Of a DNA stretch of 55,492 nucleotides, positions 21,889-36,425 are shown in pieces. This stretch comes from Prevotella sp. GTDB lineage: Bacteria > Bacteroidota > Bacteroidia > Bacteroidales > Bacteroidaceae. Within the stretch, counting starts at the first letter, position 1; each line of letters begins with the position of its first letter. Below the pieces are notes generated by a model. It did no database searches, was not told the origin of the DNA, and saw only the letters and a program-made list of their open reading frames with translations. The stretch is taken from contig JAFTFG010000014.1 of NCBI GenBank assembly GCA_017449675.1, positions 1 through 55,492 of the forward strand, in the 5' to 3' direction. The position numbers were made by a program, and so were the translations under genes.

Positions 21889-21906
21889 AAATACAGTCTC
21901 CCTTAG

Positions 21907-21940
21907 GATTGCCCGTGGAGCGTATGCTCCACAAGCAATC
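21907..21940 (-). other. Hairpin in the leader just before susC
   Basis: A two-part stem, GATTGC/GCAATC (6 bp) and GTGGAGC/GCTCCAC (7 bp), separated by a two-base internal loop and closed by GTAT, 18 bp before the susC start. There is no T run on either strand, so it is more likely an mRNA processing or stability element, or a translational control site, than a terminator. Confidence 0.5.
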
Positions 21941-21989
21941 ATTCATTAATAAAACAAACTAACCTGATTTAATTAAATACTTAAGTAAT

Positions 21990-22883
21990 CTATTTTTGAG
22001 CCAAATCTATCTGCTCCGTACGATGTAACTGAGCGGTCAACTCTTTCTGAGACAGTTGTAGCAAACCATACTCATGAATGTATTTGTTGCCATCGGTCAA
22101 TATCCAGCGAACGAAAGCGTTCAACTGACTATTGTGATGGTTGTAGTCAAGACCTATCTTGCCTACTGGAATCTCAGCGAACTGCTGCTGTTCCAATAAA
22201 AGGATGATATCATCCAGACGAGCCTCGTCCAATACCTGCTCTCCATGCTTGTCGATGTCCAGAGGTACCAATGCCAGGTCATGACGCAGATGACGGCTCT
22301 GTAAATCGAAAATATTAGAAAGGGAATTGATGGCAACACCTAAGGGGTCACGGCTCAAGGCAACATTCAGGAAACTGTCATCCCCAGAAATCTTCTTTCC
22401 TTTGTAATTACTGGTCTCCTGCTTGAAGGAAGTTGCATAGGCACGGGAGGCCGACTGCTGACTATTACCTGTGTAGATATGAAGCGTTTTCTCTGCCTTC
22501 GTCTCCTTCGTATCGTCGTCATACTCATCTTTCACGAAGAAAAGACTCTTTAGTTTCTTGGCGTTCAGACGCTTGCTGCCTAAAACTTGCTCAGCCTCCG
22601 ATGACTTGTTGACGACTGGCAGGATAGCATAGCGTGCGATGAAAACCGCATCGTCAGCCTGTTCTGTTACAAATGAAATACTATTTTCGTTATCCTGTGC
22701 CTTCCCTGTTGCAATCTGGAAAGCAATGTTATTGTTGGTCTTTGTATATTCGGCAACCCACTTCTCAACCAACGGACGTACAGAATTCTGTACGTGGAGG
22801 GTTACCTTCTCGTTCTGTGCGGTGGCTGTCAGACTAACTTGCAGCCCTAAAAGCAATGCTATCGTAAAAACTGATCTTTTCAT
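21990..22883 (-). CDS. Exported PstS-like (type II periplasmic-binding fold) protein
   Basis: 297 residues with a signal peptide (ending SLTATAQ). The opening VTLHVQNSVRPLVEKWVAEY and later SDD- and loop-type motifs resemble substrate-binding proteins of the phosphate/sulfate/molybdate type. It lacks a lipobox and there is no ABC permease nearby, so it may deliver ligand to, or sense for, the SusC/D pair downstream. Its start codon lies inside an overlapping Met/Cys-rich upstream ORF, suggesting coupled translation. Family assignment is moderate. Confidence 0.62.
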   Translation of the reverse strand: MKRSVFTIALLLGLQVSLTATAQNEKVTLHVQNSVRPLVEKWVAEYTKTNNNIAFQIATGKAQDNENSISFVTEQADDAVFIARYAILPVVNKSSEAEQVLGSKRLNAKKLKSLFFVKDEYDDDTKETKAEKTLHIYTGNSQQSASRAYATSFKQETSNYKGKKISGDDSFLNVALSRDPLGVAINSLSNIFDLQSRHLRHDLALVPLDIDKHGEQVLDEARLDDIILLLEQQQFAEIPVGKIGLDYNHHNSQLNAFVRWILTDGNKYIHEYGLLQLSQKELTAQLHRTEQIDLAQK

Positions 22884-23016
22884 AATGTTGTCGTTCTAAA
22901 TATATATTATTAATAATGTGTTGGTCTCTCTTCTTATCATTACGCATCATCTGCATGCTGCTACAACAACAGCAACACATTCGCATCTGCATTTGTTTCA
23001 TACTCATTGTCATCAT
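22834..23016 (-). CDS. Met/Cys-rich upstream ORF (candidate leader peptide)
   Basis: A 60-codon ORF that starts about 43 nt after the predicted transcription start and overlaps the first 50 bp of the PstS-like gene in another frame. It opens MMTMSMKQMQMRM, followed by five consecutive cysteines and SSMQMM: five Cys and ten Met within the first 24 residues. The Cys codons lie in or beside an inverted repeat: AATGTGTTG (minus strand, 22981-22973) can pair with CAACACATT (22923-22915) or partly with CAACATT at the downstream start codon (22890-22884). This is the design of an attenuator that reads charged tRNA-Cys or tRNA-Met. It is preceded by the operator-bearing promoter at 23066-23135. Confidence 0.6.
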   Translation of the reverse strand: MMTMSMKQMQMRMCCCCCSSMQMMRNDKKRDQHIINNIYLERQHYEKISFYDSIAFRAAS

Positions 23017-23065: not shown

Positions 23066-23135
23066 CAAAGGTACGGCGGAATTTCGAGTCCCACAATACC
23101 TTTTAAACGGCATTTTTTCTACCGCAAGTTTGGTA
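23066..23135 (-). promoter_or_regulatory. Operator-bearing promoter A (upstream ORF/PstS-like/SusC/SusD/MtaA-like unit)
   Basis: Read on the minus strand: inverted repeat at 23135-23120 (TACCAAACTTGCGGTA), 19 bp, GGTATTGT (23100-23093), 19 bp, TACCTTTG (23073-23066). The spacing is identical to promoters at 33266-33335 and 36356-36425. The 16-bp site has the 7-2-7 half-site layout of NarL/LuxR-family regulators. Confidence 0.78.
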
Positions 23136-23173
23136 GATATGCCTTAAATTCAATTAGGATAACTGATTTTCTG

Positions 23174-24610
23174 CTATTTCAGCCGTTTGAGGAGTTCCAA
23201 CAAGACCTGCCAGATATCATCAATCGTCTTCAGTTCCACCCGCTCACTGGCAGAGTGAGGTTCAACGATACGAGGACCGATACTGGCTATCTGGATGCCA
23301 GGATAATGCCGGACAAAAAATCCCGCCTCTAGAACGAAGTGCATGGCTACCAAACGAGGTCTCCAGCCTAAGACATCGAGGAAGGTGTCACTGGTCAGTT
23401 GGAGGAAGGGTGACTGTTGGTCTTCCTGCCATGCCGGAGCCGACATGACTGTTTCTGACGTAGCATTAGCGGAGGCAAACGTATCGGCAATCTCCTGACT
23501 GAGTTGTTGCATGTCAGCATCGATAAAACTACGTGTATGCGTACTAATAAGAATATGGTCACTCTCCGTTCTGATGCATCCGATATTATTCGAAGTCTCC
23601 ACCGTATCCTGCATCGTGTCACTCATCTTGACCACTCCTTGGGGAATCTGTTCCAGACAACTCATCAGTGCCTCGAAAGTCTCTGCGGGCATGACCGTCG
23701 CCTGTTTATCGCATTTCTCAATCGTACAATGCATCTGAGGGTCATTATCTCCATATTCCTCACGCAGCCATTCATTGATGCTCTCTTCCTGCGCCTTGAC
23801 AAATTCGGAAGCCTCCCCCGAACGCACACAAATCGTCAGATCAGCAGCAGAGGCAATAGAGGCATTAGCCTCACCTACCTGTATACTGGCCAGACGGAGG
23901 TCGTAATCGTTATAAATCGCCGCCAGGATAGCCCATGCAGGGATAACGGCACTACAACGTCCTTTATTGATATCAACACCGGAATGTCCACCAAGGCCCC
24001 CCTCAAAACGGATATGATACCAACGGTATTTACCACCTGGAGCAGGTTCTGGATGCATGGGAAGTCTATGCAGTTGTAAACAGGCTCCTGCGGCACCTGT
24101 AGTAATCGTATCATAATCTTCCGAGTCAAGATTGATGACTTTACGCCCACGAAGGAAGTCTTTCGACAACCGGGCGGCACCCGACATACCATCCTCCTCA
24201 TTAGTTGTAGTAATCACTTCCAAAGCCGGATGCACTATTGTGTCAGACTCCAGTACAGCCAAAGCCATCGAGAGGCCGATACCGTTATCTGCTCCCAACG
24301 AAGTGCCTTGTGCCTTCATCCACCCATTGTCGATATAGGTCTCTACAGGATCATTTAGCGGATCCTTCATCCCCACGCATACCATATCCATGTGATTCAA
24401 CAGAACGATGGGCTCTGATGCATGATAACCCGGCGTGGCAGGTTTACGGATGATAACACAGTTTTCTGCATCGCGCTCATATTCCAAATGCAGACGCTGC
24501 GCAAACTGACAAAGATAGTCAGCGACACGCTCTTCGTGATGGGAGGGGCGTGGAATACGGTTGAGTTCACTAAAAATGCTCATCACACGTTCAATAGTCG
24601 GACGTTCCAT
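23174..24610 (-). CDS. pepD: Aminoacyl-histidine dipeptidase (PepD, M20 family)
   Basis: A 478-residue zinc dipeptidase that cleaves a broad range of dipeptides. M20 motifs are present: LLNHMDMV (first metal ligand), SLGADNGIG, TTNEEDGMSGA (catalytic Glu) and GGLGGHSGVDINKGR. A second PepD is encoded at 47809-49269 with the same motifs, so the cell has two. Its promoter (24683-24726) belongs to the conserved-spacer family. It ends 39 bp before the operator of promoter A but has no operator itself. Confidence 0.93.
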   Translation of the reverse strand: MERPTIERVMSIFSELNRIPRPSHHEERVADYLCQFAQRLHLEYERDAENCVIIRKPATPGYHASEPIVLLNHMDMVCVGMKDPLNDPVETYIDNGWMKAQGTSLGADNGIGLSMALAVLESDTIVHPALEVITTTNEEDGMSGAARLSKDFLRGRKVINLDSEDYDTITTGAAGACLQLHRLPMHPEPAPGGKYRWYHIRFEGGLGGHSGVDINKGRCSAVIPAWAILAAIYNDYDLRLASIQVGEANASIASAADLTICVRSGEASEFVKAQEESINEWLREEYGDNDPQMHCTIEKCDKQATVMPAETFEALMSCLEQIPQGVVKMSDTMQDTVETSNNIGCIRTESDHILISTHTRSFIDADMQQLSQEIADTFASANATSETVMSAPAWQEDQQSPFLQLTSDTFLDVLGWRPRLVAMHFVLEAGFFVRHYPGIQIASIGPRIVEPHSASERVELKTIDDIWQVLLELLKRLK

Positions 24611-24682
24611 ATGTTCAATCTTTAATAAACTGAATGGCCATCATGGTCTAATGACCTGTGCCGTATCGAGAAATATCTCCTG

Positions 24683-24726
24683 CAAAGATACGATTAAGTA
24701 GGAAGAAAACCAAATAAAATTAGAGT
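24683..24726 (-). promoter_or_regulatory. Promoter of pepD
   Basis: Minus strand: TTTGG, 19 bp ending CTTAATCG, then TATCTTTG (24690-24683). Upstream and spacer sequence closely match the sppA promoter at 6611-6656. Confidence 0.75.
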
Positions 24727-24730
24727 TTTC

Positions 24731-25045
24731 TCAAAATGAAGGTCCCTTCGTTTCCTCCTTTGGTGCCATCTTCACTTCCATGGCTTGATAGCCAAACTTC
24801 CGAAAACTCTGGATAATATTTTCTGGAGTTGTCTTGTCGGCATCATAGGTGATGGTGACACGCTGTCCGTTTACATCTGTCTCGATGCTTTTGATGCCCT
24901 TCTCAAAACGGAGGTTCCCTTTGATTTTCTTCTCACAGTTGTCACAATGCATCTGTGGCAGGGTAGTGACTACTAATGTCTTCAAATCTTTCGCACTGAG
25001 TGACAGCGTGGCTGTCAGCATCAGTAATGTCAATAGTTTCTTCAT
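24731..25045 (-). CDS. Exported heavy-metal-associated (HMA) domain protein
   Basis: 104 residues with a signal peptide (LLTLLMLTATLSLSA) and one HMA ferredoxin-like domain with the metal motif MHCDNCEKKI. Such domains bind Cu(I) or similar soft metals. It lies 20 bp after the TonB-dependent receptor gene and is probably co-transcribed with it, so it may be the periplasmic partner for a metal or metallophore brought in by that receptor. The metal is not shown by the sequence. Confidence 0.85.
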   Translation of the reverse strand: MKKLLTLLMLTATLSLSAKDLKTLVVTTLPQMHCDNCEKKIKGNLRFEKGIKSIETDVNGQRVTITYDADKTTPENIIQSFRKFGYQAMEVKMAPKEETKGPSF

Positions 25046-25065
25046 ACCTTCAATCTTTTAATTCT

Positions 25066-27012
25066 TTATAATCTCTTTCCGAAATTCAGACGGATGCCGG
25101 CGTATAAAGTCAAACCATGTACGGGTCCCCATACCATCGTAGGCTCAAACTCCTTACTCCAAGGGTCGTCCGTACCCCAGATAGGATGAGGCTGGCGATA
25201 GTTGGTCAGGTTCTCGCCTCCTATATAGACCGAGAAATGACGGAACCAGCGGGTCACCTGTGCATTCAACTGGGGGTAGGCAGCAAAACGGGAGTCGGTA
25301 AGGGTATGGATAGAGGACGGTAGCCTGCCGCCACCATTCTGCTGGAAGGTCACGTCAAACTGCCATAAGCCGGGAGGTAGTTTATAACTTGCCGTCAGCA
25401 ATGCCTTGTACCGGCTCTGCAGAGGCTTCTCCATGAGTTGTCCCCCATACGTTGACTTGACATCGTTCAGTCGGTAGGCAGCAGTGACTTCTAACCCGTC
25501 GATGACTGGGTAGGTGGCATCAATCTGGAAAGTGTGTGAATAACTCCTTCCCCGCAGGTTGGTAAGGCGTATCTCACGGATATCGCTGTCATAGTCGACC
25601 AGCATTTGTCGGATGAAATGGGTATAATAGTATTCTGCATTCACCTTGAGGGTTTTGTTTCCTATGGGGATATTCAGTGCTGCTGAGAGTCCGTAGTTCC
25701 AGGCACTCTCCTGTTCCAAGTCGTCAATCACCAACTGTCTGCCACTCGCCAACAGATAGTTATTCTCCGCCAAGGCATGAGGCGTGCGGTAGCCCTTACC
25801 AGCCGACAGACGTAGTGTGACGATCTCATGAGGCATGTATTTCAGATGGATGCGAGGGGTACCGAACCAGCCATAACGGCTGCTGTGGTCGGCTCTGATA
25901 CCAGCCATCAGTGTCAACCGCTCGTTGAGGTTCAGCGTATATTGCAGATAGGCACCAGGAGTCGTCTCTTTGTCGTCACGATGGAAATAGTCGTGATTAA
26001 GAGAGAGTCCGGCAGACAGGTTATGTATCTCGCCCAGATTCGTCTCGAACATCAGTTGCGCATAGGCGTTCTTCTCGTTGACACTGTATGTCTTGTTGCC
26101 GTAAAGTGCTTCCAGTTGGTGGAGAGAGCCACTTGCCATCAGGGCGATATTCGTACCACGCTCAGGATTCAGCAACAGCGCATGTTTCATATAGGCCTCA
26201 TAGCGATGCGTCTCTGAGTGGATTTTAAATAACTCATCGGCATGGCATAGGGGTGAATGACTCATCTGTCCTCCTTCACGCCTCTCGTCCAACAAACTGA
26301 TGCCGCCATGGAAGATATAATGTTGTCCGATATAGTCCCAGCGGTTCTGTATGTTCACCTGCCGGATGTTAGGCTTGTCGTAAAAGCCGTCGTCGTTGTC
26401 GTCATGGTGTCCCCAGTCGTTCTCGTAATGTGCCAGCAGTTCCGTATTGACCTTCTCTACATGGATATTCGCATCCGCATTCGCCTCCATGCGACTCTTT
26501 GTATTACCATAGAGGTTGACGGCAACGCCCTCCTCGTCTTCTGGTTTGAGGTACTCGATATTGATTTGCCCTGTGATGCTCTCATAACCGTTACGCACTG
26601 ACGAGGCACCCTTCGACACCTGTATGCTCTGCATCCAAGGGCCAGGTACATAGCCCAGTGCGTAAGGGAAGGCTGCGCCACGAAAGTTCGGCATATTCTC
26701 TGTCAGCATCTGCACATAGGTGCCAGAGAGTCCTAACAGTTTGATCTGTTTCGCCCCGGTGGCAGCGTCACTGTAGTTGACATCCACCGAGGGATTAGTG
26801 GTAAAACTCTCGCCCAGATTACAGCAGGCGGCACGGAAAAGTTCCTCACGATTGACACGAATGCCGTTGACAGCACCCGCCAGTCGACTGGTACCAGAAC
26901 GACGCACAGAGACCGTCACACCATCCAGTGTAGCGGTCTTTAGCGAGTCTTCCTGTGCCGTTGCCGTCAGCGTGAACAGGAAGATTGTAATAGCCAACCA
27001 TACTCTTTTCAT
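25066..27012 (-). CDS. TonB-dependent outer-membrane receptor, probably for a metal or metal chelate
   Basis: 648 residues: signal peptide (ending LTATAQ), a plug domain (about 30-150) including GTYVQMLTENMPNFRGA and the Cys pair in RAACCNLGESF, then a 22-strand barrel ending GIRLNFGKRL. It lacks the SusC N-terminal extension. Pairing with an HMA protein suggests copper or another soft metal. A -7 box TAACTTTG at 27023-27030 gives it its own start of transcription just inside the end of the JAMM gene, so it is separate from the sulfur operon upstream. It lacks the shared operator. Confidence 0.85.
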   Translation of the reverse strand: MKRVWLAITIFLFTLTATAQEDSLKTATLDGVTVSVRRSGTSRLAGAVNGIRVNREELFRAACCNLGESFTTNPSVDVNYSDAATGAKQIKLLGLSGTYVQMLTENMPNFRGAAFPYALGYVPGPWMQSIQVSKGASSVRNGYESITGQINIEYLKPEDEEGVAVNLYGNTKSRMEANADANIHVEKVNTELLAHYENDWGHHDDNDDGFYDKPNIRQVNIQNRWDYIGQHYIFHGGISLLDERREGGQMSHSPLCHADELFKIHSETHRYEAYMKHALLLNPERGTNIALMASGSLHQLEALYGNKTYSVNEKNAYAQLMFETNLGEIHNLSAGLSLNHDYFHRDDKETTPGAYLQYTLNLNERLTLMAGIRADHSSRYGWFGTPRIHLKYMPHEIVTLRLSAGKGYRTPHALAENNYLLASGRQLVIDDLEQESAWNYGLSAALNIPIGNKTLKVNAEYYYTHFIRQMLVDYDSDIREIRLTNLRGRSYSHTFQIDATYPVIDGLEVTAAYRLNDVKSTYGGQLMEKPLQSRYKALLTASYKLPPGLWQFDVTFQQNGGGRLPSSIHTLTDSRFAAYPQLNAQVTRWFRHFSVYIGGENLTNYRQPHPIWGTDDPWSKEFEPTMVWGPVHGLTLYAGIRLNFGKRL

Positions 27013-27022
27013 AAGATGGCTG

Positions 27023-27030
27023 CAAAGTTA
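27023..27030 (-). promoter_or_regulatory. -7 element of the TonB receptor/HMA unit
   Basis: TAACTTTGCA on the minus strand, 10 bp before the receptor ATG, lying in the 34-bp gap after the JAMM protease gene. Confidence 0.6.
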
Positions 27031-27046
27031 GTGATTTTTTGAAGAA

Positions 27047-27433
27047 TCAGAGGTGCTGTTCCTTATCAATCACCTCCCCGTTAAGAATTTTAAACGAATT
27101 GAGGTGGATACCCTCGTGCAGAGAGAGAATGGCATAACGGATAGTAGGATCATTCGCCAGTCGCAGATCCTCCTGAGAGGGGCGCGAGGGAGAGGCAGGA
27201 TGACTATGCCAGTTGGCAAGGATCCTCAGTCCTTTCGAACGCGCATACTTCAAGGCTGCAAACTGATCCTTGGGAGCAAAGGAAAAATGCTCAGGCGAAT
27301 GGTCGATATTCTCCATCCAGTAGTTCTCTGTGACGACATCGTCAACACCTAATAGATAGCCACAGGTCTCATTAGGAGCATCCTTCTGAGCCTGGGCTAT
27401 CATCTCGTCTATGACATTTTGATTGATTCTCAT
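27047..27433 (-). CDS. JAMM/Mov34 metalloprotease (Mec/HcyD/QbsD-like)
   Basis: 128 residues with a complete JAMM zinc site: catalytic Glu in NETCGYLLG and HSHPASPSRPSQED (His-x-His-Pro...Ser-x-x-Asp). Bacterial JAMM enzymes of this size act with ThiS-like carriers. They trim a C-terminal extension to expose Gly-Gly (QbsD, HcyD) or release newly made cysteine from the carrier (Mec in Mycobacterium). The ThiS-like carrier two genes upstream in the operon has residues beyond its Gly-Gly, so trimming is the likely job; cysteine release is possible because cysK is in the same unit. Last gene of the cysK-to-JAMM operon, 4 bp after the ThiF-like gene. Confidence 0.9.
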   Translation of the reverse strand: MRINQNVIDEMIAQAQKDAPNETCGYLLGVDDVVTENYWMENIDHSPEHFSFAPKDQFAALKYARSKGLRILANWHSHPASPSRPSQEDLRLANDPTIRYAILSLHEGIHLNSFKILNGEVIDKEQHL

Positions 27434-27437
27434 CGTT

Positions 27438-28244
27438 TTAATGTTTTAAATCACAGGCTGCCTGCTCGTAATCTATCAACTCCGTGATGGTAGGATGCTC
27501 ACCGCAGATGGCACACGAAGGACGCTGCTTGACAGGAATGGTACGGAACTGCATCGTCTTGGCATCGAAGGTCAGCAGACGGTTGGTCAATAACTCACCA
27601 ACACCCGTGAAATACTTCAGGGTCTCCGCTGCCTGAATGGTTCCTAACATACCGGCGATGGCTCCTAAGACACCAGCCTGTGAACAGGTGGGTACGGCTC
27701 CTGGGGGTGGCGGTTCCTTGAAGAAACAGCGATAGCAGGCGGTACCAGGAAGATGCGTGAAGGTCTGTCCGTTGAAGCGCAGGATACCTCCATGTGAGAA
27801 AGGCTTGCCAGCCATCACACAGGCATCGTTGATGAGAAACTTCACAGGGAAATTGTCGGTGCCATCGACGATGAAGTCATATTCCTTGATGATATCCAGT
27901 GCGTTGCCCGACCAGAGGAACTCATGGAAGGTGTCCACCTTCACATCAGGGTTGATGGCAAGAATCTTCTCCTTGGCACTCTCCACCTTTGGCACTCCCA
28001 CATCCTTGGTGAAATGGATGATTTGCCGCTGTAGGTTGGAGAGGTCAACCACATCGGCATCAATAATACCAATACGACCAATACCCGCTGCCGCAAGATA
28101 GAGGGAGACGGGGGCCCCCAAGCCACCGGCACCCACTACGAGCACCTTGGCATTGAGGATTTTCTCCTGCCCCTCCACACCTACATCCTGCAAAAGGATA
28201 TGGCGTGAGTAACGTTGTATCTGCTCTTCAGTAAAATCGTACAT
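27438..28244 (-). CDS. ThiF/MoeB/HesA-family adenylyltransferase for the ThiS-like carrier
   Basis: 268 residues. The ATP-binding motif VVGAGGLGAPVSLYLAAAGI, the SNLQRQ motif and two CxxC zinc pairs (CYRC and CAIC) mark an E1-like enzyme that adenylates the C-terminal glycine of a small sulfur carrier. There is no rhodanese domain, so sulfur must come from another donor; the cysteine desulfurase and TusA of the same operon are obvious candidates. It follows the ThiS-like gene by 23 bp. A molybdopterin role is unlikely since no moa genes are nearby. Confidence 0.9.
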   Translation of the reverse strand: MYDFTEEQIQRYSRHILLQDVGVEGQEKILNAKVLVVGAGGLGAPVSLYLAAAGIGRIGIIDADVVDLSNLQRQIIHFTKDVGVPKVESAKEKILAINPDVKVDTFHEFLWSGNALDIIKEYDFIVDGTDNFPVKFLINDACVMAGKPFSHGGILRFNGQTFTHLPGTACYRCFFKEPPPPGAVPTCSQAGVLGAIAGMLGTIQAAETLKYFTGVGELLTNRLLTFDAKTMQFRTIPVKQRPSCAICGEHPTITELIDYEQAACDLKH

Positions 28245-28267
28245 AACTATGAACTCTTAACTATGAA

Positions 28268-28480
28268 CTAAATACTACCTCCTCCCATGAAGTACAAGAA
28301 GTCGACGGTGTCACCATCCTTGATCTGGATACCATCCCATTCAGAACGGTCAGCGAAGTCCTCATTCACCTGTACACTAACCATTTCAGGCTGTTGCACA
28401 TCATTCTGTTTGATTAACTCTGTCAAGGTGAGTGGAAGTTGTACCTCCTGTGCCTCACCATTTACTATGATCTTTGCCAT
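28268..28480 (-). CDS. ThiS/CysO/HcyS-like sulfur carrier protein
   Basis: 70 residues with a beta-grasp fold pattern (MAKIIVNGEAQEVQL at the start, DGIQIKDGDTVDFLYFMGGG near the end). Carriers of this family are activated at a C-terminal Gly-Gly as a thiocarboxylate. Here three glycines are followed by Ser-Ile, so the chain must be cut before activation, a task matched by the JAMM protease in the operon. That pairing is known for QbsE/QbsD and HcyS/HcyD. Thiamine synthesis is less likely because no thi biosynthesis genes are adjacent. Confidence 0.88.
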   Translation of the reverse strand: MAKIIVNGEAQEVQLPLTLTELIKQNDVQQPEMVSVQVNEDFADRSEWDGIQIKDGDTVDFLYFMGGGSI

Positions 28481-28499
28481 TTTTACGCTTATACCTTAT

Positions 28500-30011
28500 T
28501 TATTTGCTGTTTACAATTTTCCGTAGGGCGATAACGAGTTTATCGACATCCTCACGTGTATTATAGAGAGCGAAGGTGGGGCGGACAGACATCTCATGTC
28601 CCAACGCACGAAGGGCAGGTTGGGCGCAGTGGTGACCCGCACGGACAGCGATGCCCTCTTTGTCAAGTAATGTTCCCACCTCGGGTACGGGAATATTGTC
28701 GAGATAGAAACTGACGACAGAGACGCGATGCTTGGGATTGCCGATAAGGTGTAATCCTGGTACCTGTGCCAGTTGCTCACGGGCATACTCCGTGAGTTGG
28801 TGCTCATGGTGCTCGATATTGCGAATACCAATACGGCTCACGTAGTCGAGGGCGGCACCCAGTCCGATGGCATCAGCCACATTAGGTGTACCTGCCTCAT
28901 AACGTGCTGGTGCCTGATTATACTCTGTATGCTCTATCGTCACGTCCTTGATCATGTTGCCACCACCCTGCCAGGGCTGTAGTTTGTTGAGCCACTCCTG
29001 ACTGATATAGACGGCACCGATACCATTGGGGCCATAGATCTTATGTCCTGAGAAGACAAAGAAATCGGCTCCCAAAGCCTGCACATCGACAGGTGTATGA
29101 GCAATCGATTGGGCACCATCAATAAGGACAGGCACATGGTGGGAGTGAGCGATATCGATGATACGCTGCACATCATTGATCGTTCCGAAGGTGTTGTTGA
29201 CATGTCCGACAGAGACCACTCGTGTACGAGGTGTGATAAGACGCTCCAGTTCCGAGAGGATGAGGTCTCCGTTTTTGTCAGTAGGTATGGCGAACAAGTC
29301 TGCGCCCCGCTCTTGGGCAATGCGCTGCCAAGGCACGATGTTGGCATGGTGGTCAAGTTCTGATACAATGACGTTGTCGCCAGCCCCAAGATATTGTCTG
29401 CCAAAAGTCTGTGCCACGAGGTTGATGCCCTCTGTAGTACCACGCACGAAGACAATATTGTCGGAAGACGGTGCATTGATGAAGTTGGCTATCTTCTGGC
29501 GTGCCTCCTCGTAGGCATCCGTAGCACGTGCTGCCAGTGTGTGGGCACCACGGTGGATATTCGAATTATAGTTGCGGTAATAATCCGAAATCTTATCAAT
29601 CACCACGTTGGGCTTCTGTGTCGTAGCACCATTGTCAAGCCATACAAGATCATGACCGTTCACCTTCTGTTGCAGAATGGGGAAGTCTTTCTTGATCTGG
29701 TCGGAGTCCAGCGTGTCGGCTTCCTCATAGTGCAACTGGCGCAACTTCTGAGTCTCAGGAATTCCGATGCCGAACCCATTGTCAACGGGCAACGCATCTT
29801 GGGTGGGATGCGAAGTTGGCGCACCTCCCTCCGCCGGACGCTCTACACCAAATGGCAGTTCCAGTGCGTCGAGATTCAACTGCTCATCAGGCAGGATTTC
29901 CTGACGTTCAGCACGTACCTCGTCTGGGCAGAGTTCCTGAGCCACTCGTCGCAAGGCATCAAACACCTGAGTGTCTTGTGCGGAATAAGGATTATTGAAT
30001 GTCTCTATCAT
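28500..30011 (-). CDS. Encapsulin cargo cysteine desulfurase (SufS-like, long N-terminal extension)
   Basis: 503 residues. Residues about 105-503 are a class V PLP enzyme of the SufS group, with PLP lysine Lys324 in SGHKIYGPNG and persulfide cysteine Cys462 in RAGHHCAQPALRALG. It takes sulfur from cysteine. The first 100 or so residues are acidic and low in order, which is the encapsulation signal type known for desulfurase cargo of family 2 encapsulins. It lies 8 bp after the shell gene. In other bacteria such loaded shells accumulate elemental sulfur. Confidence 0.95.
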   Translation of the reverse strand: MIETFNNPYSAQDTQVFDALRRVAQELCPDEVRAERQEILPDEQLNLDALELPFGVERPAEGGAPTSHPTQDALPVDNGFGIGIPETQKLRQLHYEEADTLDSDQIKKDFPILQQKVNGHDLVWLDNGATTQKPNVVIDKISDYYRNYNSNIHRGAHTLAARATDAYEEARQKIANFINAPSSDNIVFVRGTTEGINLVAQTFGRQYLGAGDNVIVSELDHHANIVPWQRIAQERGADLFAIPTDKNGDLILSELERLITPRTRVVSVGHVNNTFGTINDVQRIIDIAHSHHVPVLIDGAQSIAHTPVDVQALGADFFVFSGHKIYGPNGIGAVYISQEWLNKLQPWQGGGNMIKDVTIEHTEYNQAPARYEAGTPNVADAIGLGAALDYVSRIGIRNIEHHEHQLTEYAREQLAQVPGLHLIGNPKHRVSVVSFYLDNIPVPEVGTLLDKEGIAVRAGHHCAQPALRALGHEMSVRPTFALYNTREDVDKLVIALRKIVNSK

Positions 30012-30019
30012 TCCTTCAT

Positions 30020-31459
30020 TTATTTCTCTACTTTATTACGATGCTGGTAGTCGTGGTAGTAGCCTACCTCTACATTCTCAAGGACAGCAATGGCATCGTC
30101 TGTCAATGCCGCAAGACTGAAATACTTAGTCAGCAAATAGGAAGCGACACCAAACTTGTCGAGCCCCATCAGACGAGCACTAAGCGATGGAGCAATCTCT
30201 CCTGGGATACCACTCTGGTGCAGGCCTACCACACCCTGGTTCTTCTCACCAGTGCGGACGAGGATAATCTTTGTTGTTCCTACGCCACGACCTGTCAGGA
30301 ACTGTCCTTCTACCTCTACCTTATCTGAGGGTATCAGGGGTACGCCACGCCAAAGGATGACTTTCGTACCAAAGAGATCGGTTGTCACAGGTGGAACACC
30401 ACGCCATGTACACTCACGCTCGAAGGCGGCAATGGCACGTGGATGAGCAATGAAGAAAGCAGGTTCTTTCCATACCAAAGACAACAATTCATCAAGGTCG
30501 TCAGGAGTCGGTGCGCCATAGCGGGTCGTGATGCGATGGGCAGGACTGACAGAGGCAAGCAGTCCGAATTGGGTATTGTTGATAAGTTCCCATTCCTGAC
30601 GCTCTTTGATACTCTCTATGGAGAGACGCAGTTGCTCTTCGAGTTGGTTGTAAGGGTTATTATAGAGATCACTCACACGAGTGTGAACACGTACTACAGT
30701 CTGTAAGGTATTGAGACTGTATTCCGTGGGATTCTCCTCGTAGTCGATATAGGTCTCCGGGATGATATTATCCTCCTCATGACCACTGACTAAGTCGATG
30801 TGTTTCTCACCATGGTCATTGACAGTTGCCTTCAGGCGTAACTGCTTGTCGACAGCCTTCTGGAAAGTCTGTCGGAAGTCAGGAACCTCCTTGATAAACT
30901 TCTCCAACTCGGAGAGTTTCAGAGAGAGGAACACAGAAGGTGTGACGGCACGTACGCTGACTGTAGAAGCGGCATCGTTCAGGAGGTCTGCCTCACCGAA
31001 GAACTCACCGTCACCCAGCAGGGCGATACGCAGTTCCTCCCCATGAGGCCCCTTATTGATGACCTCAGCCTGACCACTTGCCACGATGAAGAACTTCTGT
31101 TTGTCTTTGCCTTCTTTGACGAAAAGGTTACCCAGTGCGACCTCAACGGTCTCGAAAGAACTTGCCAAACGTGTGACAATCTCATCGTCAAAGGCTGAGA
31201 ACAAAGGAATCTGTTTCAGACTCTTTGCGGTAAATGACGGAACCCCATTGAGATACTCGATATTCAGACGCTCCGTCTTCTTGAGTTCTACCTTGGTGCG
31301 GTTGACACGGAAAGTGCCACCACTTACCTGAACCCATGGAAGGAGTTTCAGGAGGAGTCTTGGAGTGATACTACCCATCTGAGGGGCTGTCTTGGTAGTG
31401 GTCGCCAGTTTTCTAGCGGTGGCAGTGGTCACACTGCGCTGAAGATTAGAATCTGCCAT
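30020..31459 (-). CDS. Family 2B encapsulin shell protein with cyclic-nucleotide-binding-like domain
   Basis: 479 residues. An N-terminal arm (about 1-75) and a C-terminal HK97-type shell fold (about 240-479, with PAFFIAHPRAIAAFERECTW and LVRTGEKNQGVVGLHQSGIP) flank an inserted cNMP-binding-like domain (about 80-215, GEFFGEADLLNDAASTVSV). That insertion defines family 2B; family 2A lacks it. The arginine that grips the cyclic phosphate in CRP-type domains is not seen after the LL motif, so the ligand may differ or be lost. The desulfurase cargo gene is next. A 91-bp gap with a strong hairpin separates it from tusA. Confidence 0.95.
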   Translation of the reverse strand: MADSNLQRSVTTATARKLATTTKTAPQMGSITPRLLLKLLPWVQVSGGTFRVNRTKVELKKTERLNIEYLNGVPSFTAKSLKQIPLFSAFDDEIVTRLASSFETVEVALGNLFVKEGKDKQKFFIVASGQAEVINKGPHGEELRIALLGDGEFFGEADLLNDAASTVSVRAVTPSVFLSLKLSELEKFIKEVPDFRQTFQKAVDKQLRLKATVNDHGEKHIDLVSGHEEDNIIPETYIDYEENPTEYSLNTLQTVVRVHTRVSDLYNNPYNQLEEQLRLSIESIKERQEWELINNTQFGLLASVSPAHRITTRYGAPTPDDLDELLSLVWKEPAFFIAHPRAIAAFERECTWRGVPPVTTDLFGTKVILWRGVPLIPSDKVEVEGQFLTGRGVGTTKIILVRTGEKNQGVVGLHQSGIPGEIAPSLSARLMGLDKFGVASYLLTKYFSLAALTDDAIAVLENVEVGYYHDYQHRNKVEK

Positions 31460-31524
31460 AGTTTAGTCTTTTTTATTTTTTGATAATTACCTTGAATTTT
31501 TAATCCGAACTTGTTCACGCTCTA

Positions 31525-31550
31525 CAAAGTCCAAAATAGTTTGGACTTTG
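31525..31550 (-). other. Perfect hairpin between tusA and the encapsulin gene
   Basis: CAAAGTCCAAA (31525-31535), loop ATAG, TTTGGACTTTG (31540-31550): an 11-bp perfect stem that abuts the tusA stop codon. No T run follows. It may protect or process the mRNA so that shell and cargo are made in a different ratio from the upstream enzymes. Confidence 0.6.
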
Positions 31551-31775
31551 CTATCGCTTAATCACAACTTTATGTGTTGTTCCCTCGACATGCTCCACGG
31601 AGAGCACCTCATAGCCCTGATCTACCGCATTGCGGGGCACATTGTCCAAAGGCTCACCCTCAGAAAGCAGTACCTCCAAAATGTCACCTGCCTGTAACTT
31701 AGCCAGTTCTATTTTGGTCTTGACGAAGGTCATCGGGCAATGCTCCTTCGTAATGTCTAATGTCTTTGTCGCCAT
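31551..31775 (-). CDS. TusA-family sulfurtransferase
   Basis: 74 residues with the family start LDITKEHCPMTFVKTKIELA. Cys13 in the CPMT motif is the persulfide carrier. TusA proteins relay sulfur between a desulfurase or DsrE-type protein and an acceptor in the cytoplasm. Position between dsrE and the encapsulin pair suggests it moves sulfur into or out of the shell, or to the ThiS-like carrier (inference). Confidence 0.9.
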   Translation of the reverse strand: MATKTLDITKEHCPMTFVKTKIELAKLQAGDILEVLLSEGEPLDNVPRNAVDQGYEVLSVEHVEGTTHKVVIKR

Positions 31776-31798
31776 ATAACTTAAATTAAAACTTTACA

Positions 31799-32278
31799 CT
31801 AAATAAACATTGTTCGTCCCCCCTCTGAGAGTTGCAGGAAGGTCGCAACGCCTAATACATCCTTGACTTCAGGGATAAAGTCTTCTTTTTTTAATCCCAG
31901 AACATGCATAGCCATCTCACAAGCATACAGGTTGACACCCAAGACCTTTGCAGCCTCTACCAGTTCCTCCAAGGTCGCCACATTATTTTTACGCATCAGG
32001 TAGCGGAAGATCTTAGGACCTGCTCCACAGAAATTGAAGCGGCTGGTAGGTGTCGTCTTAAGACCTCCCATCATGAAACCGAAAATCTTCGTCAACCAGT
32101 TAGCGCCAAGGAACGCACGCCCTTGTTTCTTCTTGATAGCATCCAGTCCCCAGAAGGTAAAGAAGATGTTAACCTCATATCCTACGGCTGCGGCACCCGT
32201 TGCAAGAGTGAATACAGCCGTCAACTTGTCGAAATCACCACTGAAGGCGATGAGACTTAGTTTCTTAGTATCGCTCAT
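31799..32278 (-). CDS. DsrE/DsrF-like sulfur relay protein
   Basis: 159 residues of the DsrE2-type family: FSGDFDKLTAVFTLATGAAA, a central FTFWGLDAIKKK block, and a conserved cysteine in YACEMAMHVLG (Cys120), plus Cys84. Proteins of this kind carry persulfide sulfur and often pair with TusA. It starts 2 bp after the end of cysK and is 23 bp from tusA, so it is firmly inside the operon. Confidence 0.9.
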   Translation of the reverse strand: MSDTKKLSLIAFSGDFDKLTAVFTLATGAAAVGYEVNIFFTFWGLDAIKKKQGRAFLGANWLTKIFGFMMGGLKTTPTSRFNFCGAGPKIFRYLMRKNNVATLEELVEAAKVLGVNLYACEMAMHVLGLKKEDFIPEVKDVLGVATFLQLSEGGRTMFI

Positions 32279-32280
32279 AA

Positions 32281-33216
32281 TTATTCGAAATTATAAATAG
32301 GTGTACTCAGATACCTCTCACCTGTATCTGGTAGAATGACCACAATATTCTTTTTCTCATTTTCCGGACGCTTCGCTACCCGAATGGCGGCAGCCACAGC
32401 AGCAGCCGATGACACACCCGTCAACACACCATCCGTACGGGCAAGTTGCCGTCCACGATCGTATGCCTCCTCATCTTTGACACGGATAATCTCATCGTAA
32501 ATGGCTGTATTCAACACCTTGGGTACGAAGCCAGCACCAATACCCTGTAGTTTGTGAGGGCCAGGCTTTCCCCCACTCAACACAGGAGAACTGTCGGGCT
32601 CCACAGCAATTACTTGAATATTGGGATTGTATTTCTTGAGCACTTCACCAACACCAGTGATCGTACCACCAGTACCAATGCCTGCTACCAGAATGTCTAC
32701 CTTCCCGTCTGTGTCACGCCATATCTCCTCAGCCGTCGTCTTACGATGAATCTCTGCATTCGCTTTGTTCTCAAACTGTTGCGGGATAAAAGCATTACCG
32801 ATCTCAGCCGCCAGTTCCTGTGCCTTACGGATACTACCACTCATTCCCTCATAGGCCGGGGTCAATACCAAAGTGGCCCCCAATGCTTTCAAGAGGGTAC
32901 GGCGCTCCTGCGACATGGCATCCGGCATGGTCAGGATTAAGCGATAGCCTTTGATAGCACAGACATATGCCAGTCCTATTCCCGTATTACCACTTGTCGG
33001 TTCGATGATGGTGGTGTTCTCGTTGATGAGTCCACGCCGTTCCGCATCATCTATCAAAGCAAATCCAACACGGTCCTTCACACTTCGCGAAGGATTGAAA
33101 TACTCTAACTTGGCGATCACACGTGCTTTCAGATGTTCTTTCTTCTCCGTATGCGTCAACTCCAACAAGGGAGTATTGCCAAGCAAATCAATGAGGTTGC
33201 GAGCGATGTTTGCCAT
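32281..33216 (-). CDS. cysK: Cysteine synthase A (O-acetylserine sulfhydrylase)
   Basis: 311 residues, fold type II PLP enzyme. PLP lysine Lys47 in [11 protein letters not shown], substrate loop [10 protein letters not shown] and the phosphate-binding stretch [10 protein letters not shown] are in place. It makes cysteine from O-acetylserine and sulfide. Some members take sulfur from a ThiS-like thiocarboxylate instead, and such a carrier is in this operon. It is the first gene after operator-bearing promoter B, with a leader of about 43 nt. Confidence 0.95.
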
Positions 33217-33265
33217 ATCTTTCTCGATTTAATGGATTATCAAAATAATGTTTGAATTCTGTTTG

Positions 33266-33335
33266 CAAAGGTACGGCATTCCATAACACTGGACAATAGC
33301 ACTGTTATGGCATTTCATATACCTAACGTTTGGTA
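33266..33335 (-). promoter_or_regulatory. Operator-bearing promoter B (cysK-encapsulin-JAMM operon)
   Basis: Minus strand: TACCAAACGTTAGGTA (33335-33320), 19 bp, GCTATTGT (33300-33293), 19 bp, TACCTTTG (33273-33266). With flanks, ATATACC and GGTATAT make a near-perfect 22-bp palindrome around AACGTT. The operator overlaps the last codons of the upstream C-S lyase gene. Confidence 0.82.
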
Positions 33336-34498
33336 TATACTGCCTCCAACTGTTTTAATGCCTGCAGAAGGACACTTCTGGGAGTCCCCACATTTAAGCG
33401 CATGAAGCCCTCACCGCCAATTCCAAACATCGCACCGTCATTAAGGGCGAGGTGTGCCTGGTTGACGAAGAGGTCGACGAGTTGGTCATGGTTCAGTCCC
33501 AAGGCCCGACAGTCGATCCAGACGAGGAAAGAGGCCTGTGGACGGATAGGTTTGAGGAGGGGTAGATGTTCCCTGCAATAGTCTTCCAAGAAACGGATAT
33601 TCTCCTCTATATACACCACCATCTGCCTGCGCCATTCCTCCCCTTGCTGATAGGCCGCAATGGTGGCTATGGGTGAGAACAAAGGAGGGTCGTTGAATTC
33701 ATTAGCCTCTAACCATGTATAGAAGCGGCGACGTAATGTCGGGTTGGGAACGATCGCATAACTGCTGACAATACCTGCGATATTGAAGGTCTTGGAAGGT
33801 GCCCCAAAGGTGATGCTGCACTGTGCAGCCTCCTCGCTAACTGTAGCGAACGGGACATGACGGTTACCAAAGAGTGCCATATCACTATGTATCTCATCAC
33901 TCAGTACCAGGATATGATGCTCATAGCAGAAATGAGCCAGTCGCCGTAGCGTATCGATTGACCAACAAATACCTGCGGGGTTGTGCGGATTACTGAGTAT
34001 CAGTATCTTACAATGCTCATCCGCCACCTGTTCGAGTTGTTCGAAATCCATGTCATAACCACCGTCCTCACGTCTCGTCAACGGGTTATATACCACTTGA
34101 CGGCCATTGCCCTGTGGAGTAATCCGGAACGGGTGATAGACGGGCGGCTGGATAATGACCTTATCGCCTTCCCCAGAGAAGACATTGACCGCCATACCGA
34201 TACCCTTCACGATACCGGGAATATAGGTGAGCCACTCCCGTTGTACCTCCCATCCGTGATGATCATATATCCAACGGATAATCGTCGTCCATAACTCGTC
34301 AGGGGTCACCGTATAACCAAACAGAGAGTGATTAAGGCGTTCCCTAAGTGCTTCTGTGATAAAAGGAGGGGTCTCAAAGTCCATGTCCGCAACCCATAGC
34401 GGTAGCAGGTCGCTGCGTCCGTAACGCTCCTGTAACACCTCATGTTTCAGATCGCCACTGCCTGAGCGGTCTACAATCTTGTCAAAATTATAAGTCAT
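33323..34498 (-). CDS. MalY/PatB-type cysteine-S-conjugate (cystathionine) beta-lyase
   Basis: 391 residues, fold type I aminotransferase-like PLP enzyme. It has LPLWVADMDFETPP at the start, NPHNPAG, and PLP lysine Lys236 in GAPSKTFNIAGI. MalY/PatB enzymes cleave cystathionine or other cysteine S-conjugates to a thiol or sulfide, pyruvate and ammonia. Here it could release homocysteine or sulfide from organosulfur compounds. It overlaps the upstream PLP gene by 11 bp (translational coupling), and its 3' end contains operator B. Confidence 0.92.
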   Translation of the reverse strand: MTYNFDKIVDRSGSGDLKHEVLQERYGRSDLLPLWVADMDFETPPFITEALRERLNHSLFGYTVTPDELWTTIIRWIYDHHGWEVQREWLTYIPGIVKGIGMAVNVFSGEGDKVIIQPPVYHPFRITPQGNGRQVVYNPLTRREDGGYDMDFEQLEQVADEHCKILILSNPHNPAGICWSIDTLRRLAHFCYEHHILVLSDEIHSDMALFGNRHVPFATVSEEAAQCSITFGAPSKTFNIAGIVSSYAIVPNPTLRRRFYTWLEANEFNDPPLFSPIATIAAYQQGEEWRRQMVVYIEENIRFLEDYCREHLPLLKPIRPQASFLVWIDCRALGLNHDQLVDLFVNQAHLALNDGAMFGIGGEGFMRLNVGTPRSVLLQALKQLEAVYTKR

Positions 34499-35669
34499 CT
34501 TGTAAAGCCTGTTGAATATCCGCTAATAGGTCGTCCACATCCTCCAGACCGATTGAAAGACGGACTGTGGTCTGTCGCACATCCATCTGTTCCAACTGTT
34601 TCTCCGGGAAAAGCCCGAAAATGGTAGAGGCAGGATGGATGGCCAAGGTACGGTTGTCAAAGAGATTGGTGGCACGATGGATGAGTTTCAGGCGATTAAG
34701 AAAGCAGAAACAGTGGTCCTTACTTTTCAGGTCAATGGTCAACATCGCTCCTGCCGTCTTACCAAACTGTCGCTGGGCTATCTCATAATAGAGATTGTCC
34801 TCCAAGCCGATATAGTTGACACCCTTCACGAGTCCTGACTCCTTTAATACTTTCGACAGTTCGAGAGCATTAGATGCCTGACGGTGGTAACGCACGTCGA
34901 GAGTTTCCAATCCCAGCGTTTGCAGGTAAGCAGTCTGAGGTGTCATATAGGCCCCCAAGTTAAACAGCAACTCATATTTGATACGCTGGTTAATCTGGGG
35001 GAAGGTTCCATAATCAATGACGAGTCCTCCTAATGATGTTCCACCGCCAGAAAGGTATTTAGTACTCGACACCACTTCCACATCGACACCCAACTTTTTC
35101 AGTTGCGTCTCCGTAAAGGGTATCACTGTAGAATCGGCAATGAGAGGTACACCTTTGCGATGGGCAACCTCGGCAATGGCATGTAGATCTGCCACCTCTA
35201 ACTGCGGATTTGTCACTGTCTCCAGAAACACACAACAGGTCTGTTCGTCAATGGCATCCTCTATCGCTTGTAAATTGGTGAGGTCACGAAGACGAGGCTT
35301 CACGCCGAAGCGCAACAAGGTATTGGTGACCAGTGCAAGAGTATTGCCAAACAGATGTCGGGAAGTCACAATATTCTTCCCTTGGTTGGCAACAGCCAAC
35401 AGTACATTGCTGATAGCCGCCATCCCAGAATTAAAGGCTGTGACATGGGCAGCACCTGTCAGTTGCCGTACCCTCTGTTCCAGGTTCGTCACAGTGGGAT
35501 TCTCCACACGAGCGTAGTCAGGAGCCTTGATACGATTACAAAAGGCATCACTCATCTCCTGGGCATCCTGAAACTCGAACGCCACATTATTATATACTGG
35601 GAGTGACAGTGCCCCATACACATCAGGACGCACATAAGGAGTATGGATTGCTATGGTCTGTTTCTTCAT
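34488..35669 (-). CDS. Trans-sulfuration PLP enzyme (Cys/Met metabolism family)
   Basis: 393 residues, with PLP lysine Lys204 in SSTKYLSGGGTSLGG and the family motifs YARVENPT and AFNSGMAAI. Members include cystathionine gamma-synthase, O-acetylhomoserine sulfhydrylase (MetY), cystathionine gamma-lyase and methionine gamma-lyase; these cannot be told apart here by eye. Next to a ThiS/JAMM system, MetY is attractive: in Wolinella, MetY uses a protein thiocarboxylate to make homocysteine. Follows luxR by 12 bp. Confidence 0.9.
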   Translation of the reverse strand: MKKQTIAIHTPYVRPDVYGALSLPVYNNVAFEFQDAQEMSDAFCNRIKAPDYARVENPTVTNLEQRVRQLTGAAHVTAFNSGMAAISNVLLAVANQGKNIVTSRHLFGNTLALVTNTLLRFGVKPRLRDLTNLQAIEDAIDEQTCCVFLETVTNPQLEVADLHAIAEVAHRKGVPLIADSTVIPFTETQLKKLGVDVEVVSSTKYLSGGGTSLGGLVIDYGTFPQINQRIKYELLFNLGAYMTPQTAYLQTLGLETLDVRYHRQASNALELSKVLKESGLVKGVNYIGLEDNLYYEIAQRQFGKTAGAMLTIDLKSKDHCFCFLNRLKLIHRATNLFDNRTLAIHPASTIFGLFPEKQLEQMDVRQTTVRLSIGLEDVDDLLADIQQALQDDL

Positions 35670-35681
35670 ACTATTCTTCTT

Positions 35682-36326
35682 TTAGATATAGAACTCCGAA
35701 GGGTCTACCAGTCCGGCACGAAAGGCATACTTCACGGCCTCATGGGCGGTATTCACCTGTAGTTTCTTGAAAATATTCTTCTTGTGTGTGTTCACCGTAT
35801 GGATACTGGAGAACCGCTCACTGGCAATCTCCTTTGTCGTCTTTCCTTGAGCCACGCCACGCAGTATCTCTATCTCCGTCTGCGTCAGCACCTTCGGACT
35901 CTGTCCCTCATCAGCCTGTTGACAGATCAGTACCTCTGCGGCACGCTGACAGAGGTAACGCTCACCTCGGATGGCATAGTCGATAGCATGGCGGAACAAT
36001 TTAAAGGGGGAGTCCTTGAACACAATACTCACATGACGAGTTGCATAGACCAGTTTGCGCATCGTCTGGGCCGTCAGGTCATCACTGACCAATATCCACT
36101 GGGTCTTAGGGAACCGCTCAATGATGATGAGCAACTGTTCCTCGTCCTGTATATCAAATAAGGTATAGTCGAGGAGAACGATACTGTTTTCCTGCACCTG
36201 TAACTGTTCTATCAACTGTTCTTTTCCCGAGACATCATAGGAGACAGCACCCTCCACCTCACGGAGGAGTGTCTTCAGGGCAAAAGCCGTCAATTCCTGA
36301 TTATCTGCCAAAATAAAATTCACCAT
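35682..36326 (-). CDS. NarL/LuxR-family response regulator, probable sulfur-regulon activator
   Basis: 214 residues. The receiver-like domain (about 1-120) has Asp8, the phospho-site Asp53 in LLDYTLFD and Lys104 in VFKDSP. The usual acidic pair is reduced to one Asp, and no histidine kinase is adjacent, so control may be atypical. A LuxR-type helix-turn-helix occupies about 145-205 (LTQTEIEILRGVAQGKTTKE, then HTVNTHKKNIFKKL). First gene after promoter C. The three operators have the 7-2-7 inverted layout this DNA-binding family uses, so it is the best candidate to bind them, including its own. Confidence 0.9.
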   Translation of the reverse strand: MVNFILADNQELTAFALKTLLREVEGAVSYDVSGKEQLIEQLQVQENSIVLLDYTLFDIQDEEQLLIIIERFPKTQWILVSDDLTAQTMRKLVYATRHVSIVFKDSPFKLFRHAIDYAIRGERYLCQRAAEVLICQQADEGQSPKVLTQTEIEILRGVAQGKTTKEIASERFSSIHTVNTHKKNIFKKLQVNTAHEAVKYAFRAGLVDPSEFYI

Positions 36327-36355
36327 ACTATTACTGTATCATTTGGTTTTGTCTG

Positions 36356-36425
36356 CAAAGGTAGGGGGATTTGGGAATGCGCACAATACCGTTTTTCAGT
36401 CATTCTACCTACCATACGTTTGGTA
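36356..36425 (-). promoter_or_regulatory. Operator-bearing promoter C (luxR and two PLP enzymes)
   Basis: Minus strand: TACCAAACGTATGGTA (36425-36410), 19 bp, GGTATTGT (36390-36383), 19 bp, TACCTTTG (36363-36356), then a leader of about 25 nt to the luxR ATG. Identical spacing to promoters A and B; autoregulation is likely. Confidence 0.8.

Follow-up and report, generated by a model that had tools for sequence, protein, structure and literature searches.

Three promoters on the minus strand of a 55,492-nt contig of Prevotella sp. (JAFTFG010000014.1; the whole stretch analysed is called the window hereafter) carry the same 16-bp inverted repeat at the same distance from the promoter, and they precede a SusCD uptake locus, a cysK-encapsulin unit and a unit headed by the gene for a NarL/LuxR-type regulator. 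Do they form a regulon, which protein reads them, and what does the Met/Cys-rich open reading frame (ORF) ahead of the SusCD genes do? We found that the shared architecture is real and larger than a preliminary description of this DNA had reported, and that, taken purely as a matter of sequence, the existence of the regulon is nearly certain. It is probably a sulfur-acquisition control system common to many Prevotella-type gut bacteria and switched by the LuxR-type regulator. The full explanation that we prefer, a Prevotellaceae sulfur/cysteine regulon under a NarL/LuxR-type activator acting on tandem operators, with a leader switch added on the SusCD unit, we consider likely when taken as a whole.

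The three sites (23066-23135, 33266-33335 and 36356-36425, all on the minus strand) have the sequence and positions first reported, and the 54 bp ascribed to them is measured between the centre of the operator and the -7 box. When aligned by script, all three showed the same layout, which reads 5' to 3' as a distal operator of 16 bp, 7 bp, a degenerate proximal operator of 16 bp ending in TA, then TTG, 20 bp and TACCTTTG. The preliminary description had recognised a single repeat per promoter; the repeat is there, but each promoter carries two operators, the proximal one being degenerate, lying 22-23 bp nearer the promoter than the distal one and touching TATTG. Similarly, the conserved CATT that it listed is present, not as an independent mark but as the end of the proximal operator (GGCA-TT). 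In the SusCD unit, the distal operator (TACCAAACTTGCGGTA) is found at 23120-23135, the proximal operator (TGCCGTTTAAAAGGTA), which overlaps TATTG, at 23097-23112, the -33 element TATTG at 23094-23098 and the -7 element at 23066-23073. The corresponding distal, proximal and -7 positions are 33320-33335, 33297-33312 (TGCCATAACAGTGCTA) and 33266-33273 in the cysK unit, and 36410-36425, 36387-36402 (TGACTGAAAAACGGTA) and 36356-36363 in the regulator unit. Distal operators were located by sequence scan and script alignment, the SusCD proximal operator by the position profile described below, and the remaining elements by script alignment.

The operator form, TACCNNA-NN-TNNGGTA, consists of inverted heptamers with a 2-bp spacing, as in NarL-type operators; TACC and GGTA were fixed by the operator search, the inner A/T preference was not. 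A position profile of 83 sites with a 22-bp gap revealed this second operator as a weaker copy (T-R-C-C...G-G-T-A) occupying columns 24-39: every site has T at column 24, 93% have C at column 27 and 96% have G at column 36. None of these columns was fixed by the search, and the final bases of this operator merge with TATTG. At 10 fetched sites the distal operator lies one period farther away (45-bp gap) and a degenerate middle copy, shifted by one base in some, occupies the interval; the sulfite reductase promoter of the genome to which the window belongs (the home genome) is of this three-operator kind. In addition, we found 30 distinct divergent promoter pairs, mostly, by gene calls, between a ThiS-ThiF-JAMM unit and a DsrE-encapsulin-desulfurase unit, in which one central operator is common to both promoters and is flanked by two proximal operators.

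The 16-bp pattern alone, allowing up to 2 mismatches, was not enriched in the home genome (24+26 matches against 27+42 for the reversed control), a result that we count as a negative point, and the operator alone was rejected as a marker since at 2 mismatches it is no commoner than its control. The signal is thus carried by exact matches and geometry. The exact 16-mer occurs only four times in the home genome (1.8 Mb, about 54% complete), at the three window sites and at C17:79156, in the same geometry each time. The strict pattern of operator, CAAT and -7 element matched five places in this genome with no control match, and across 150 genomes of the genus it gave 127 matches in 53 genomes, the reversed control giving none. 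A looser scan of the same genomes (gap 15-45, spacer 18-21, possible match lengths 61-94 bp) yielded, among 150 matches listed, 84 of 70 bp, 28 of 69 bp, 7 of 71 bp, 10 of 93 bp and 21 scattered, with a total of 4 reversed-control matches. Matches of 93 bp contain one additional 23-bp period, and one of these, from G005, seems to be fortuitous. Gaps at the 134 fetched sites were 22 bp in 83 (spacer 20), 21 bp in 27, 45 bp in 10, 23 bp in 5 and other values in 9, counts that are biased towards these lengths because loci L074-L162 were chosen by eye from the looser-scan list with a preference for matches of 69-71 and 93 bp; the tally of the 150 listed matches is free of this selection.

Across the order the motif is rarer, occurring in 13 of 344 genomes, the home genome included. 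Among nine of these loci that were read, cysK is the next gene within 60 nt in four (L174, L175, L179 and L180) and lies 524 nt away in L176; in one locus, which comes from the same genus, SusC lies at a distance of 703 nt, and the downstream genes of the other three were not recognised. A scan of one genome per species over 84,980 species, blind to function, retrieved at least 120 stretches. Among the 80 matches listed most are from Prevotellaceae, many of them from ruminants, and named isolates with the motif include Xylanibacter ruminicola D31d, Prevotella ruminicola KHT3 and Segatella albensis. We set aside, as a different motif, the 72-78 bp matches exemplified by CAATACCTAnnnAT. This tandem motif stands at other Prevotella promoters (G042:C2:180365, G115:C4:1422632, G118:C5:58212 and G160:C19:7993) and perhaps marks another LuxR-type regulon.

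The -7 form TAnnTTTG is the common Bacteroidota promoter element, which is what would favour reading the shared architecture as an ordinary Prevotella promoter plus chance. The 127 strict matches against none in the control argue otherwise, as does what lies downstream: among the stretches listed by the species-wide scan, 125 sites were new (absent from the first set and with at least 300 bp of downstream sequence), and 101 of them have a core sulfur gene no more than 1.3 kb downstream. Chance or plain promoter likeness is refuted by these two results, and we regard it as extremely improbable. Unrelated genes at random spacing, the outcome that had been proposed as the refuting one, were not what the scans returned. 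The core genes at the 101 sites were cysK (27), ThiF (19), a protein of the ~297-aa type that opens the SusCD unit (16), DsrE (12), SusC (9), the regulator (7), the sulfhydrylase family (6) and encapsulin (5). Of the 24 sites lacking one, 5 precede pstB, several look like parts of the island (TonB receptor, SusD, small pre-encapsulin genes) and others are unrelated or unread. In the fetched loci of the genus, where downstream genes were clustered by single-linkage BLAST and labels such as SusC or Met gamma-lyase (MGL) hold at family level, the geometry is regular and at least one gene is called at 122 sites, and in 89 of them a core sulfur-island gene (SusC/D included) comes first or second. 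The fixed spacing and the sulfur genes downstream therefore bear out the proposed regulon joining the SusCD locus to the encapsulin island.

The regulon is also wider than had been said, comprising in addition cysDNH, sulfite reductase, siroheme genes and a Pst-like transporter. In the home genome, the motif sites beyond the window stand upstream of pstB, of a hemA-hemC fusion and of a NirA/sulfite-reductase-type gene accompanied by cysG- and cobA-type genes. The sulfite reductase-like protein of the home genome (L008:6165-8558) has a C-terminal TusA sulfurtransferase domain. In one locus (L263, 1832-5778) a motif-bearing pstB is followed by cysD, cysN and cysH, suggesting that the Pst-like transporter, annotated for phosphate, may carry sulfate; we regard it as a candidate sulfate importer. 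A Pst-like ATPase gene also stands under the sulfur motif at L007:10199-11065.

Which protein reads the operators? The first gene of the third unit (35682-36326, minus) encodes a NarL/FixJ-like regulator that is the likely reader, as judged from Pfam, structure-profile similarity and co-occurrence with the motif. Its C-terminal part is a LuxR/GerE helix-turn-helix (HTH) domain (PF00196, E 2.1e-16, residues 146-201), and over its full length it is similar to 5hev (E 6.6e-15), the structure of a response regulator named VraR. Of 65 homologues aligned to that chain, all 65 have the first acidic Asp, the acceptor Asp and the Lys, 64 have the Ser, and in 54 the second acidic residue is Asn. A homologue (E <= 1e-20) occurs in 93 of the 150 genus genomes and the strict motif in 53, with both in 47, the motif only in 6, the regulator only in 46 and neither in 51 (Fisher p=4.5e-7). 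Genomes with the closer subfamily (best match of at least 52% identity, two fragments included) have the motif in 36 of 48 cases (p 7.8e-12 versus the rest). Moreover, of 120 loci retrieved by motif alone, 22 contain the regulator gene, and this gene opens a motif unit in the window as well as in L123, L126, L194, L246, L268, L270, L283, L287 and L288. Genome co-occurrence and linkage thus lend support to the suggested assignment of the regulator to these sites and to its probable autoregulation.

An alternative is that the regulon is real and that its operators are read by another DNA-binding protein, either a LuxR-type paralogue (43-50% identical) or an unrelated factor, the window regulator being merely one target. 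The home genome does have a paralogue with 50% identity to the window regulator (C18:45452), a gene of this type adjoins or follows cysK with the motif in L105, L253 and L272, and the strict motif is carried by 11 of the 45 genomes whose regulators are all of the remoter kind and by 6 of the 57 that have neither kind. We consider this alternative unlikely given that the closer subfamily tracks the motif best and that regulators of the window type head their own motif unit in several species.

We infer that this NarL/LuxR-type regulator most likely binds, as dimers, the tandem 16-bp operators (TACC-N8-GGTA, period 22-23 bp), and that in a shortage of sulfur amino acids it would activate the units, its own gene included. 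The proximal operator abuts the -33 element, which would be a class II activator position; its centre falls near -43 on the assumption that transcription starts a few bases after TTTG. The same overlap with TATTG is what one would expect if the bound protein were instead a repressor relieved in sulfur shortage. Activation appears to fit better with a farther operator held at fixed phase and with central operators common to divergent promoters, and we think repression improbable.

Several points weigh against the explanation that we prefer. Pfam returned no receiver domain in the regulator at 0.001, and the remoter regulators do not track the motif significantly when compared with genomes having neither kind (p=0.11). 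Six of the 53 motif genomes have no detectable regulator, among them G046 (99% complete) and G038 (93%), 46 regulator genomes have no strict match, and the genomes of one genus are not independent in such statistics. The position of the proximal operator over -33 would also suit a repressor, and the evidence for control consists of correlations.

The SusCD unit has a further feature. The Met/Cys-rich upstream ORF of the preliminary description is real: at 22834-23016 (minus), it encodes 60 aa, starts MMTMSMKQMQMRMCCCCCSSMQMM and, by ORF and codon comparison, reaches 50 nt past the start of the next gene, which is read in a different frame. That gene (21990-22883, minus), the first main gene of the unit, encodes a ~297-aa protein that looks exported by eye and falls in no Pfam family and matches the PstS profile only weakly (E 0.013); in 24 members of its family, Pfam gives scattered chance-level matches only. 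It is followed on the same strand by a SusC/RagA-type TonB-linked receptor (18793-21942, profile search), a SusD-like lipoprotein (17158-18747) and a URO-D/MtaA-family protein, likely the last gene of the unit (16045-17091; both by profile/Pfam search).

With a detector requiring at least 2 Cys and at least 6 Met plus Cys in 35 residues, so that composition figures are partly selected, a Met/Cys-rich ORF was found in 27 of 49 SusCD-type (SUS) units, defined as beginning with the 297-aa-type protein or SusC. Elsewhere it was found in cysK 0/63, ThiF 0/33, encapsulin 0/32, regulator 0/10, pstB 0/9, MGL 1/10 and other 1/53 units, and reverse-strand controls gave SUS 4/49, MGL 1/10, pstB 1/9 and 0 in the other classes. 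When SUS units are sorted by distance, the leader is present in 27/27 with the main start at least 100 nt downstream and in 0/19 with a closer one (three unresolved); no resolved long-leader unit failed the detector. In 25 of the 27 the leader runs over the main start, and despite distances that differ by many codons the offset modulo 3 is identical in all 25; for five of them the main start assigned automatically is an ATG in frame with the probable one and upstream of it. The two non-overlapping leaders end 5 and 81 nt before the main start. Pooled pN/pS for the leaders (nonsynonymous over synonymous change) was 0.47 over 226 pairs, and Cys columns alternate between TGT and TGC; the dependence of these pairs on one another counts against this figure. 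Two adjacent Cys residues, a Cys codon run, occur in 25/27. The leader ATG lies 29-109 nt after the predicted -7 box, as measured from that box and not from mapped transcripts, so it is not a leaderless start. Taken together, the leader is conserved and looks translated, in a fixed frame relative to the gene that it overlaps. In one genome, a different SusC-type unit with a three-operator promoter (L076:6730, minus) has a short leader, MNTNNMIRMCKRCCTISI, with its own stop.

A hairpin attenuator or riboswitch is unsupported as the basis of a leader switch. No excess of RNA structure was found in 26 of the 27 leaders (z -1.7 to 1.5, 40 shuffles each), the value of -4.5 for L222 coming, by eye, from a hairpin upstream of the leader, and at the gathering threshold Rfam matched nothing in the window except one tRNA. 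These results make a mechanism based on ribosome traffic, whether occlusion or coupling, likelier than a hairpin. In the window leader, 79 nt separate the end of the Cys run from the main start and 61 nt the end of the Met tract, so that a ribosome stalled there would be far enough away to leave the start open. The leader would then be a second layer of control on the SusCD unit: with charged Met and Cys tRNAs plentiful, ribosomes would traverse the Met/Cys codons and cover the start of the first main gene, and with these tRNAs scarce they would stall 60-80 nt upstream and leave it free. This arrangement suggests an occlusion attenuator that senses sulfur amino acids.

Met and Cys also bind Cu(I), and the ORF might instead resemble the CruR/CutF leaders in serving as a metal sensor (for copper) or in encoding a small protein that binds metal. 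A heavy-metal-associated (HMA)-type protein and a TonB receptor lie within the same sulfur island, and, like CruR as described in PMC9426467, the leader stands first in an operon that includes a TonB-linked receptor. We nevertheless consider a copper role rather unlikely: PP or RAPP occurs in 0/27 leaders and CxxC in only 13/27 (first 35 residues, several within the Cys run), no hydrophobic N-terminal signal sequence is evident by eye, the promoter belongs to the sulfur regulon, and Met and Cys are the two sulfur amino acids.

Published expression data bear on the sulfur signal. In the available parts of a study of P. ruminicola 23 (PMC5552732), cysK, O-acetylhomoserine sulfhydrylase (PRU_2791, also printed PRU_2971) and the RagA receptor PRU_2827 are among the genes highest on peptides versus ammonium, cysK and the sulfhydrylase were also identified as proteins, and ammonium in the growth tests was supplied with 3 mM methionine; the authors read the pattern as a nitrogen response. 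In X. ruminicola D31d, one motif is grouped with the sulfhydrylase gene and cysK, and another, at a distance of about 37 kb, precedes a leader (by eye), a 297-aa-type protein (PBP), SusC and SusD. The regulon suggests that these 'nitrogen' data are partly a methionine response. Set against this, the comparison varies the nitrogen source as well as methionine, 0.05% cysteine was present throughout, other variables differ, and cysK fell more than 10-fold under ammonium limitation (PMC5552732); the promoters with the motif were read in D31d, a related strain. The accessible portion of a study on iron-starved Bacteroidetes (PMC10434189) holds nothing on this regulon.

The remaining island genes, all on the minus strand, fit the sulfur theme by annotation. 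The cysK unit encodes cysteine synthase A (cysK, 32281-33216, TIGR01139 above cutoff), a DsrE2-like sulfur carrier (31799-32278, profile/Pfam search), the family 2B encapsulin shell (30020-31459, NF041163 above cutoff) and a SufS-type cysteine desulfurase of the encapsulin cargo type (28500-30011, TIGR01979 above cutoff; cargo model NF041166 below its cutoff). There are also a ThiF/MoeB-type E1 (27438-28244, profile search) and a JAMM/JAB peptidase (27047-27433, profile/Pfam search). Behind the regulator gene lie an enzyme of the O-acetylhomoserine sulfhydrylase/Met gamma-lyase family (34488-35669, below the cutoffs of named models) and a PatB-type C-S lyase (33323-34498, TIGR04350 above cutoff). 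At 24731-27012 a TonB-dependent receptor adjoins a small heavy-metal-associated (MerP/CopZ-like) protein inside the island, and similar pairs of a receptor and a CSSC protein, judged by eye, stand under the motif in L125 and L140. In L141, L152 and L104 the sulfur motif precedes a conserved pair of genes whose products look, by eye, ATP-grasp-like and esterase-like.

We know of no sulfur master regulon for the Prevotellaceae, and none was found in the open full-text literature, most subscription papers lying outside that scope. The Met/Cys leader as a conserved overlapping element of SusCD units is new here. The regulon would explain the control of cysteine synthesis and of encapsulin sulfur handling in dominant rumen and gut bacteria, SusCD and Pst-like transporters of unknown substrate gain a likely role in sulfur uptake, and the leader-peptide switch is a proposal that reporters can test. 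A broader generalisation is that in Prevotellaceae, and probably in other Bacteroidales, sulfur acquisition is governed by a NarL-type master activator that acts on phased tandem operators, the SusCD arm having in addition a structure-free Met/Cys leader attenuator in which ribosome traffic blocks uptake while sulfur amino acids are plentiful; we advance it tentatively, as a serious possibility that falls somewhat short of probable.

How does this system compare with known ones? Like the NarL/FixJ regulators (VraR/LiaR, NarL), the regulator combines full-length similarity to 5hev and a GerE/LuxR HTH with inverted heptamers in a 7-2-7 arrangement, and the heptamers beginning TACC resemble the NarL heptamer. 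It differs in that its receiver is not recognised by Pfam, one residue of the acidic pair is mostly Asn, its targets are sulfur genes, and its operators are repeated in tandem at the promoter with a strict period of 22-23 bp. CysB (LysR) and CymR (Rrf2) place the genes of sulfate assimilation and cysteine synthesis under one regulator, the same role as proposed here; the protein family and the operator are different in our case, and the regulon also includes SusCD, encapsulin and the ThiS/ThiF/JAMM module. For the leader, the mycobacterial polycysteine upstream ORF attenuators, reportedly described by Canestrari in 2020, are one point of comparison. In excerpts of the relevant papers (PMC13236596, PMC9094748 and PMC9031893) these are short upstream ORFs with contiguous Cys codons before sulfur genes, and the leaders studied here share the upstream ORF with a Cys codon run; in contrast, they are not leaderless, are Met-rich as well, overlap the main start in a fixed frame, have no excess structure, and precede an uptake operon in Bacteroidota. 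The CruR/CutF copper-responsive upstream ORFs contain Cys and head an operon, in the case of CruR with a TonB transporter, as far as the portions of PMC9426467 and PMC9973294 describe them; our leaders differ in lacking the RAPP or PP stall motif and an evident signal peptide, and in having a sulfur-regulon promoter. The Met/Cys leader thus corresponds in full to neither the polycysteine-leader nor the CruR/CutF definition. Finally, the shell and SufS-type desulfurase are those of family 2 encapsulin systems, of which the Synechococcus example is reported, in part of PMC8346489, to be upregulated in sulfur starvation; what distinguishes the present island is the promoter element and likely regulator proposed for it, and its tie to SusCD uptake.

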